A DNA stretch of 64,000 nt from Vibrio sinaloensis. GTDB taxonomy: Bacteria; Pseudomonadota; Gammaproteobacteria; Enterobacterales; Vibrionaceae. The notes beneath the pieces are model-generated. The model was not told where the DNA came from, made no database searches, and worked only from the letters and a program-made list of their open reading frames with translations. The position numbers and the translations under genes were made by a program. The stretch lies in assembly GCF_000808535.1 (NCBI RefSeq), contig NZ_JWLV01000007.1, positions 1 to 64,000 of the forward strand, given 5' to 3'. Shown here one piece after another: positions 9,518 through 37,559 of this stretch; the stretch's first letter is position 1, and each line of letters begins with the position of its first letter.

Positions 9518-10894
9518 ATGAAGAGCATTACTCAAGAAGTGAATGATTTAATCCATCGCAGCGTTGACTCACATGTCCGTATTGCGGTGACCGGATTATC
9601 CAGAGCAGGCAAAACCGCGTTTATTAGCTCTTTGGTTAATCAGCTTCTTCATACCTCAACTCACGATAACTTGCCGCTACTCTCTGCGGCGAGAGACAAA
9701 CGCCTTGTCGGAGCCAAACGTGAGCCCCAATCTAATATGTTGGTGCCAAGGTTTGGTTACGATGAAGCCATCGAGTCCCTCCACAGTGAGCCTCCTCAGT
9801 GGCCAAAACCAACGCGAGATGTCAGCGAGATACGCTTAGCGTTAAAGTACAAACCTAAGAAAAAAACCAAGAAACTGTTCAATAGCACAGCGACCTTGCA
9901 CATCGATATTATTGATTACCCAGGGGAGTGGTTGCTCGATCTGCCGCTTTTGGATATGGACTTCGAGCAATGGTCTAAGAGCCAATTTGATGCACTAAAA
10001 GGTGTTCGCCAAGAATTAGCGGCGCCTTGGCTTGAGAAGCTCTCTCAGTTTGATGTCGATTCGGACCTCGATGAAAAACAACTGGCGGAAATTGCTCAAA
10101 CCTATACCGACTATCTATACGCGTGCAAAGAGAGTGGACTCCATTGGGTTCAACCGGGACGGTTTGTATTGCCCGGAGAACTTGACGGCGCGCCAGTGTT
10201 GCAGTTTTTCCCAGTGAAGTTTGAAGAAGGGAAAAAGGTTGAGAAAACGTCCAATTTAGCCATGCTTCAAGCGCGCTATCACGAGTATCAGCAGAAAGTA
10301 GTGAAAGCCTTTTATAAGCATCATTTCTCAACGTTTGATCGCCAAATCGTTCTGGTGGATTGCTTACAACCACTCAACGCCGGTTACGAATCGTTCCATG
10401 ATATGCGAGACGCGCTGGAACAAATCATGAATAGCTTTAAGTACGGTAGGAGTAATTTATTAAAGCGCCTGTTTTCACCTCGGATTGATAAAGTGCTATT
10501 CGCGGCAACAAAAGCGGATCATGTCACCCCTGAACAACACCCAAATTTGGTGTCTTTGTTGCAGCAAATGGTACATCCAGCGTGGCAAAACGCGTCGTTT
10601 GAAAACATTGAGATGAGTTGTATGACTATGGCCTCTATCCAAGCCACTCAAACGGGTTTTATTGGTCAGGGCGATCAGGCGGTGCCTGCGATTCAAGGAG
10701 TGACGCTGGAAGAGAAACCCATGACGGTCTTCCCTGGTGAAGTGCCGAAGAAGTTACCCAATAAAGTGTATTGGCAGCAGCAAGGGTTTGAGTTTACCGC
10801 CTTTCGCCCTCAAGCATCGCTCAGTGATGAGCCATTGCCGCACATTCGCATGGACAAAGCACTTGAGTATTTGATTGGAGACAAACTGAAATGA
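9518..10894 (+). CDS. ycjX: YcjX family P-loop GTPase-like protein
   Basis: 458 residues. A Walker A motif GLSRAGKT is at 26-33 and a DYPGEW segment acts as the Walker B / G3-like motif, so it should bind nucleotide. YcjX belongs to the DUF463 family, whose genes in enterobacteria lie near the phage-shock (psp) operon and are linked to envelope stress; the exact activity is not established. The stop codon overlaps the start of the next gene (ATGA), so translation is coupled with ycjF, and tyrR follows: the same ycjX-ycjF-tyrR order as in E. coli. Confidence 0.9.
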
Positions 10895-32777: not shown

Positions 32778-33644
32778 TTAAAAGCAAAAATGGCAGTTCT
32801 CTTTGGTTAAACCAAATCGTCCTTCGCGGCTCGCGATATGTTTTGCTCCCTCTTTCTTACCCATCTCATAGCCCCGCATTAAAACGTTGTGATTCATGGT
32901 CAATCGTTTAACGTTAAATGTATCATCGGGGGCGATCACACGTACCGTGACGCCAGTCGGTGGATTGCGGATGAACTCAAGCGATTGGTTATAACGGCTA
33001 GCTCTTTGTGCCATGGCTTTGGCGATCATTGGCTGCTTTGCCAATAGTTTATCCATCAACCATGAATGACGCATAGGTGGCATTTCATAGCTGAGTGGAT
33101 GAGAGAGAATGACGGTGATCTCGTTTGCACCTTGGCGGTAGGCTTCGATAACAGGAATGGAGTCCGCCACTCCGCCATCGGTATAACAGCCGCCAGAAAA
33201 GCATGGTGTGGTTTTATAGGCAATAGGCAGCGCGCTGGTGGCTTCAAGCACAGCAGTGATGTTCTCTTTATTTACTTGGTAATACTCCGCATTGCCTGTT
33301 TCAATATTGGTTGCTGTGGCAATCAGAGGGAGGTTTGAGAATAACGTCGCGTCATCAAGAGGAAAGCGTTTGTTCGATTCAGCAACCAGCCATTTTACAT
33401 CCACCAAATTTCCGCCTTTGACGAACCGTTTTGGATTGAAAAACGCTCTATCAGTCGCTAATTCACAAATCACTTTTTGACTTCTGCCATGCTGTTTAGA
33501 CAAATAACCAACAAGGTTTGATGCCCCAGCAGACACTCCGATGGCAAAATCAAACTCATAGTAATCCTCTTCAATAAAGCGATCTAAGACACCCGCAGCA
33601 AAAATACCACGCATCGCTCCGCCTTCAACAACCAATGCTTTCAT
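32778..33644 (-). CDS. Patatin-like phospholipase (YjjU-like)
   Basis: 288 residues with a patatin catalytic dyad: oxyanion loop GGAMRG (8-13), nucleophile S38 in GVSAG, and D156 in TDGG. Such enzymes hydrolyse acyl esters of phospholipids. No signal peptide, so cytoplasmic. Similar to E. coli YjjU in length and layout. The ATG has only a weak purine-rich site. Divergent from the SOS-controlled small gene; its start is about 170 bases from the LexA box, so control by that box is unlikely. Confidence 0.88.
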   Translation of the reverse strand: MKALVVEGGAMRGIFAAGVLDRFIEEDYYEFDFAIGVSAGASNLVGYLSKQHGRSQKVICELATDRAFFNPKRFVKGGNLVDVKWLVAESNKRFPLDDATLFSNLPLIATATNIETGNAEYYQVNKENITAVLEATSALPIAYKTTPCFSGGCYTDGGVADSIPVIEAYRQGANEITVILSHPLSYEMPPMRHSWLMDKLLAKQPMIAKAMAQRASRYNQSLEFIRNPPTGVTVRVIAPDDTFNVKRLTMNHNVLMRGYEMGKKEGAKHIASREGRFGLTKENCHFCF

Positions 33645-33790
33645 AACTTTTTTCTATCTGGTTCAGGATAGTTGTGATCCTATGAAAGAGCGCCAAGACG
33701 GTCTAATCGGCTTTACTAATTATTGGAATAGGCAAAACCAAATGGTCGCTTCGCTGGTTTTTGATAACCTGTTTTTATACACAGTATTAT

Positions 33791-33834
33791 TTGACGATCT
33801 ACAGAACTTAACTATACTGTATTTATAAACAGAT
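33791..33834 (+). promoter_or_regulatory. Sigma-70 promoter overlapped by a LexA (SOS) box
   Basis: TTGACG at 33791-33796 and TATACT at 33813-33818 are 16 bases apart, a near-ideal promoter. Overlapping the -10 element is CTGTATTTATAAACAG at 33817-33832, an exact CTGT-N8-ACAG with AT-rich centre and TA before it, as in the LexA consensus of gammaproteobacteria. LexA bound here would block the promoter. The gene start is 15 bases downstream. Confidence 0.82.
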
Positions 33835-33848
33835 GAAGGAGGTGGTAT

Positions 33849-34070
33849 ATGATCTGGGAAACCATTGAACGAGTAAACCGCCTGCGTCAAAAGGCGCTTT
33901 CCGATCCTGAGTTTATTCAATCAGCAAAAGCGCACGAGCAAGCGATCCGTGTTCAAGAAAATTCTGATTTCACATCGGTTAAACGCAGTAAAAAAGTGAA
34001 AGAGCGTACGTTAGCCGACATATATAAACCAACTGATCTCTCGCCCAACTCAGGTGAGCGATCTCATTAA
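33849..34070 (+). CDS. Small SOS-controlled protein, unknown function
   Basis: 73 residues, basic and hydrophilic, no membrane helix. The first third (MIWETIERVNRLRQKALSDP) can form an amphipathic helix; the middle has a basic patch KRSKKVKER. I recognise no family. The gene is well supported: AGGAGGTGG lies just before the ATG, a strong promoter and LexA box precede it, and an intrinsic terminator follows. By context it is made on DNA damage, so a checkpoint, division-inhibitor or repair-accessory role is possible, but nothing in the sequence decides this. Confidence 0.8.
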   Translation: MIWETIERVNRLRQKALSDPEFIQSAKAHEQAIRVQENSDFTSVKRSKKVKERTLADIYKPTDLSPNSGERSH

Positions 34071-34078
34071 TTTCAAAC

Positions 34079-34110
34079 AAAGGGAAGCCCAGCGCTTCCC
34101 TTTCGCTTTA
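34079..34110 (+). terminator. Terminator of the SOS-controlled small gene
   Basis: Perfect 10-base arms AAAGGGAAGC/GCTTCCCTTT with a 5-base loop and T-rich tail (CGCTTTATT). Confidence 0.8.
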
Positions 34111-37202: not shown

Positions 37203-37559
37203 ATGAGTGACATGGAGCAAAAGCGTAAATTTTATCGCCTTAAGTACCCAAAGCGGGGCCGGCCTTGCGTTCGCTTTTCACAAGAACTGTACCACGTGAC
37301 AGAAGTGTCCGAGGGTGGTATTCGTGTACTTATGCATAATTTAAGCAGCCTATATAAAGGGTTGACGATGAAAGGTGTACTTTCACTGCACAACGATTGT
37401 GAAGTGTCTATCGAAGGTGCTGTTTTGCGCTTTGACAACGATGAAGTGATTGTACAGCTCAAAAAAGGCCCTTCTTTTAAAAACATGGTCGAAGAACAGC
37501 GACATATCAAAAATGTATTTCCTCGTCATTTTGAACGGCTAAAAATGCAAGCAGCTTAA
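37203..37559 (+). CDS. PilZ-domain protein
   Basis: 118 residues, a lone PilZ domain. The cyclic-di-GMP motif RxxxR is R8-K-F-Y-R12. The second motif, usually D/N-x-S-x-x-G, reads E34-V-S36-E-G-G39, so its first residue is changed. Likely a small c-di-GMP effector, but binding should be treated as probable only. AAAGGAG lies seven bases before the ATG. A terminator follows; no flagellar or biofilm genes are next to it. Confidence 0.8.
   Translation: MSDMEQKRKFYRLKYPKRGRPCVRFSQELYHVTEVSEGGIRVLMHNLSSLYKGLTMKGVLSLHNDCEVSIEGAVLRFDNDEVIVQLKKGPSFKNMVEEQRHIKNVFPRHFERLKMQAA

Follow-up and report, generated by a model that had tools for sequence, protein, structure and literature searches.

A very probable unfB ortholog of Vibrio sinaloensis with two LexA boxes in its promoter and a conserved terminal histidine

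Does a 73-codon reading frame placed behind a LexA box in Vibrio sinaloensis represent a genuine SOS gene and, if so, which one? The window, the whole stretch of 64,000 nt analyzed here, contains this frame on the forward strand (33,849–34,070, from the ATG to the end of the stop codon), preceded by the ribosome-binding site AAGGAGG (33,836–33,842, +) and by a promoter-like pair, apparent both in the sequence and in a promoter scan, in which a 16-base spacer separates the −35 hexamer TTGACG (33,791–33,796, +) from the −10 hexamer TATACT (33,813–33,818, +). An exact CTGT-N8-ACAG box, CTGTATTTATAAACAG (33,817–33,832; box 2, without assigned strand), overlaps the −10 hexamer by two bases. An earlier note on this DNA had described the TTGACG-N16-TATACT promoter with an exact LexA box over its −10, the strong ribosome site and the 73-codon gene as a complete single-gene unit under LexA control elements, and all of this is borne out by the sequence. 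It had counted a single box, however, whereas there are two exact ones: box 1, CTGTTTTTATACACAG (33,769–33,784; likewise without assigned strand), lies just upstream of the −35 hexamer and 48 bases upstream of box 2. The terminator that the note had assigned to the gene stands in part, as a terminator-like hairpin is found at 34,079–34,103 (+) and similar hairpins follow the gene at 51 of 95 related loci (against 12 of 475 shuffles), but its tail, CGCTTTATTG, is without a strong T run. Judging from these letters, the promoter of the window gene has a LexA-binding site made of two boxes, and this two-box promoter is a new addition of the present analysis. In the window, the gene is flanked by a patatin-like gene and by one for an amino-acid permease; the patatin-like gene (32,778–33,644) is divergent from it, shares with it the intergenic region that contains box 1, and might also respond to LexA.

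On its own, the box pattern is weak evidence. CTGT-N8-ACAG occurs four times in the window, whereas 100 shuffles gave 1.03 on average and four in a single case, and the remaining two boxes (9,875–9,890 and 37,287–37,302) are inside ORFs. Likewise, promoter-like and terminator-like matches in the region of the gene are near chance (4 against a shuffle mean of 3.0, and 2 against 1.2, respectively). Homologs with the same upstream box were sought in other Vibrio, a proposal of the earlier note, calling a box when at least seven of the eight core bases were present at most 160 bases upstream of the gene. At least one box was found at 89 of the 95 related loci, with two boxes at 59 and a single one at 30, whereas shuffles that preserve base composition only gave at least one box in 4.7% of cases and two boxes in 0 of 1,900. 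The boxes thus exceed chance because they are conserved across related loci. Additionally, the promoter-like pair is present at 54 of the 95 loci, the fused form of the −10 and box 2 (TATACTG or TACACTG) at 48, and a strong ribosome site (GGAGG or AGGAG) at 85.

A search with the single sequence retrieved relatives in 192 of 329 genomes of the bacterial family, four of them in two other genera and the remainder in Vibrio; an order-wide search matched 28 of 394 genomes, all of one genus, and no relative was found in a phage collection. The 95 loci mostly represent the better-scoring among the 192 matches, include two from the same genome (L038 and L117) and encode 90 distinct proteins, of which 87 remained after removing two broken copies (L086 and L102), one with a misplaced start (L129) and duplicates. 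Alignment A1 contains 76 of these 87 proteins, the window protein included, and the 11 omitted include that from L131, which ends in tyrosine. The broken copies, from two genomes, have in one case an internal stop and in the other a frame change. Of 15 close pairs, 13 had dN/dS values no higher than 0.14; among the other two, one, with only three changes, gave 0.45 and the second was saturated. The protein is under purifying selection, and both box and frame are conserved in relatives (boxes at 89 of 95 loci, together with low dN/dS). What the earlier note observed is therefore confirmed, and is stronger than it was described: this is a real, conserved SOS gene. Its surroundings are variable: the flanking gene clusters occur in 35 different combinations among the 95 loci. 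Records from V. nereis, V. hepatarius and V. tubiashii, which we take not to be human pathogens, carry both the gene and the box. They do not fit the remark, made in the accessible text of the 2012 paper discussed below, that only those Vibrio species that infect people have unfB together with a LexA site (PMC3323433).

Two V. cholerae-type genomes (L069/L113 and L070; the type was assigned partly from gene order) encode homologs with 45% and 40% identity to the window protein, and in both of them the gene is followed downstream, on the same strand, by genes for an NMT1 periplasmic protein and then for a HAMP-GGDEF protein. In V. cholerae, VC1368 was named unfB and is co-transcribed with VC1369 (a periplasmic nitrate/sulfonate-type component) and VC1370 (GGDEF-family), according to the portion of Krin et al. 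(2018; PMC5963079) available to us. Because the homologs share the gene order VC1368-VC1369-VC1370, the window gene is very probably orthologous to unfB (VC1368/VP1428), and it has the LexA box in common with the published gene. The flanks differ, since V. cholerae unfB has the NMT1 and GGDEF genes downstream whereas the window gene is accompanied by the patatin-like and permease genes; a downstream gene of the NMT1-type cluster occurs at 8 of the 95 loci. In one genome, where the flanks resemble those of V. parahaemolyticus, the gene is a few genes past the end of a putative type VI secretion cluster, as we take the preceding genes to be; this position agrees with the number VP1428 and proves nothing.

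The earlier note had called the protein uncharacterized, which holds for its molecular function and not for the gene, already designated unfB, with LexA binding, induction and a UV phenotype of the deletion published in 2012 and 2018. In the accessible parts of these papers, LexA binds the VP1428 promoter in EMSA (Sanchez-Alberola et al., 2012; PMC3323433), mitomycin C induces VC1368 16.0-fold and deletion of V. cholerae unfB lowers UV survival (PMC5963079). As far as the same text goes, sensitivity to mitomycin is reported solely for the tatABC mutant and not for unfB, VC1369-1370 mutants are UV-sensitive as well, and complementation is described for cep only (PMC5963079). Because VC1369-1370 share a transcript with unfB and their mutants are affected by UV too, the V. 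cholerae UV phenotype is possibly partly polar. The accessible text of the 2012 paper gives no unfB homologs outside Vibrionaceae (PMC3323433). A search of the literature on the gene names retrieved only PMC3323433 and PMC5963079, with most subscription journals outside its coverage. The gene is not new, being already on record as unfB.

The consensus of the family is MLWETLERVNRLRQQALxNPEFxQSAKxHExAL, followed by a variable basic linker, LADIYxQxEF and a tail with H as its last residue; M1, N10, R13, A26, H29 and H73 are invariant in the 76 rows of alignment A1. For the window protein, the predicted parts are a two-helix hairpin (residues 2–46), the basic linker, the LADIY motif and the terminal His73. 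The structure model has helices at 2–18 and 20–46, predicted with confidence as far as about residue 40 (with a pLDDT near 90 over residues 1–30), plus a short, low-confidence helix at 55–58. An amphipathic N-terminal helix, as proposed by the earlier note, is plausible and not proven: the hydrophobic moment of residues 2–18 is 0.52, a value reached by 168 of 2,000 shuffles, so that support for it is modest. The basic patch that the note mentioned is plain in the sequence as the linker at about residues 43–54, and the whole protein is slightly basic, with 14 K+R against 11 D+E. Its statement that the protein belongs to no recognized family agrees with the finding of 0 matches for the window protein in Pfam, NCBIfam and the PDB sequences. 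A match to phrog_846 (E 0.012) came from only one of the 76 family members and was taken as noise; other matches of members, among the 25 families listed for each collection, were weak and scattered, affecting at most six of the 76 in PHROG and at most 15 in Pfam (gamma-glutamyltranspeptidase, best E 0.0034). The best hit in a PDB profile search had an E value of 0.07, and Foldseek with the model returned a single match at E 7.5, a fold comparison that says little given the mean pLDDT of 75.2 and pTM of 0.35.

A C-terminal histidine occurs at 92 of the 95 loci and in all 76 rows of alignment A1, and its conservation is a further new addition of this work. The three loci without it are the broken copies L086 and L102 and the intact L131, ending in Tyr. 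For comparison, His is the last residue in 26 of the 488 other ORFs at these loci, a figure in which related loci are counted repeatedly, and in 1 of 63 ORFs of the window. According to the accessible text of PMC11986505, Lon of Yersinia has a preference for a C-terminal His, which is what chiefly determines degrons of the SulA type, and the degron is given as x-L/I-L/I/V-H. The UnfB family shares the terminal His with the Yersinia Lon H-degron proteins named there (Smg, ApaG and Y2853), but differs from their motif, hydrophobic before the His (PMC11986505): the penultimate residue is hydrophobic at none of the 92 His-ending loci, and the residue one position earlier at 21 of 92. Of the H-degron features, UnfB thus has the terminal His and lacks the two hydrophobic residues before it, and turnover by Lon is for this reason hypothetical. 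With that reserve, the conserved residue hints at quick destruction of the protein once repair ends. The V. cholerae lon gene is named among LexA-controlled genes in the available portion of PMC5963079, with an induction of only 1.5-fold. Also terminated by His are a SulA-family protein from the genome of the window gene and four SulA-family proteins from another genus; distant members and some paralogs of UnfB are without it.

Our comparisons also retrieved members with no LexA box. A group defined by sequence and not by a tree, with proteins starting MIW(D/E)TLERVNKLRK (the stretch ends in LRR in one of the 12 further loci), has no box of seven out of eight core bases at the six loci sampled nor at 12 further ones, that is, at 18 of 18 (L071, L072, L074, L105, L124, L133 and L154–L165). 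This box-less Vibrio group is perhaps the Splendidus clade, and it is under-sampled among the 95 loci because these are mostly better-scoring matches. In view of these 18 loci, we dropped the idea that LexA control defines the family. Moreover, since the group retains both the protein and its terminal His, UnfB function is not tied to SOS alone. The distant members L166 and L167 have two boxes with a different spacing and no terminal His. In addition, 16 plasmid records were matched at E ≤ 1 (best, 1e-4; most near 0.02), and four of the plasmid regions were examined. Three encode motif-bearing, UnfB-like proteins with no box in the 300 bases upstream (L140, 3,977–4,192; L137, 3,980–4,210; L138, 3,983–4,195), and L139 has no such protein in an annotated frame. 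The L140 copy is a few genes before traL, ends in His, which those from L137 and L138 do not, and corresponds to a profile match in a genome contig (E 1.0e-15). Immediately before one of the plasmid genes are a small ORF and a gene for a DNA cytosine methyltransferase. The box-less group and the plasmid relatives are, as well, new additions of the present analysis.

As a whole, the reading we favor, which we consider possible and somewhat short of probable, is that the window carries an unfB ortholog repressed by LexA through two boxes and encoding a helical-hairpin accessory factor for UV survival that is cleared by Lon. LexA bound to both boxes, one upstream of the −35 and the other over the −10, would keep the promoter off, and RecA-driven cleavage of LexA after DNA damage would free it; the boxes were seen here by sequence, while LexA binding and induction are those published for the orthologs. 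The 73-residue product is predicted to contain a helical hairpin that a flexible basic linker joins to the short LADIY segment. As an accessory factor of small size, it would then probably hold a repair or replication protein on nucleic acid and so raise UV survival, with the hairpin or the LADIY segment contacting protein and the basic linker contacting nucleic acid. For this step, the UV phenotype is that published for V. cholerae, and we infer the adaptor mode, the partner and the nucleic-acid contact. Finally, the conserved terminal residue suggests that the protein may be short-lived, its removal by Lon being aided by the His. A bolder version, in which UnfB would be a new class of SOS effector, namely a hairpin-plus-tail modulator of RecA or of the fork replacing DinI, with a variant His degron for Lon and borrowed by plasmids without the box, appears quite improbable.

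Among the alternatives, a division-checkpoint inhibitor similar to SulA, made during SOS, blocking FtsZ or the divisome and cleared by Lon through the terminal His, would account for the LexA boxes and the small size; the family also has a terminal His as in SulA, where it is a known Lon determinant in the accessible text of PMC11986505, and so does the SulA-family protein of this genome. Nevertheless, a SulA-type role for UnfB is made less likely by a protein already encoded in this genome that scores above the Pfam cut-off for SulA (25.2 bits against 23.1) and whose gene has a LexA box of its own. Additionally, the window protein is about half the length of SulA and matches no Pfam family, SulA (PF03846) included; PF03846 is also absent among the 25 listed of the 43 families matched from the 76 members. 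The mutant phenotype reported for the ortholog is UV sensitivity, in the available portion of PMC5963079, and the protein persists in a sequence group whose loci have no LexA box; we regard this role as rather unlikely. The SulA-family protein found at L065 (C47, from the same genome, near 30,818) has 131 aa, is behind a LexA box and ends in His. The idea that vibrios lack SulA and that UnfB replaces it was dropped, since 100 of 150 genomes of the bacterial family, this one included, have SulA-family matches at E ≤ 0.001 (90 above the cut-off), although some of the long ones are probably ImuA, judging from length and context. Elsewhere in this genome, a DUF2835 gene (L066; C47, near 155,589) adjoins a near-consensus LexA box, TACTGTATAAATAAACAGTA, and is possibly a further SOS gene.

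DinI is a small, acidic SOS protein, and SOS-acting proteins are common on plasmids. UnfB could stand in its place and adjust both the activity of RecA and the cleavage of LexA: a search that detects the E. coli control found no DinI in this genome, UnfB is small and preceded by LexA boxes, and it has relatives on plasmids, one of them near conjugation genes. The UV phenotype of the ortholog, as given in the accessible text of PMC5963079, is also in keeping with such a modulator. Against it, the window protein has no Pfam match to PF06183 and no sequence match links the two small proteins, and the UnfB linker is basic whereas DinI is acidic; we hold this explanation to be unlikely. A toxin or growth-arrest peptide of the TisB kind would also be small and could have two LexA boxes, but no hydrophobic membrane stretch was seen by eye in the sequence or the model, whose helices are charged and linker basic. 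As the box is also lacking at 18 of 18 loci of one group and the ortholog mutant is UV-sensitive in the available portion of PMC5963079, such a peptide is very improbable. That a chance ORF follows a chance box, CTGT-N8-ACAG being expected about once per window, is refuted by conservation, with the gene in 192 of 329 genomes of the bacterial family, low dN/dS and conserved boxes, and its probability is practically nil.

Together, these results portray unfB as a widely kept, strongly selected SOS gene of Vibrio. The two-box promoter predicts tight repression, and the conserved terminal His makes turnover by Lon directly and cheaply testable. Likewise, the box-less sequence group allows the function of UnfB to be studied apart from SOS.
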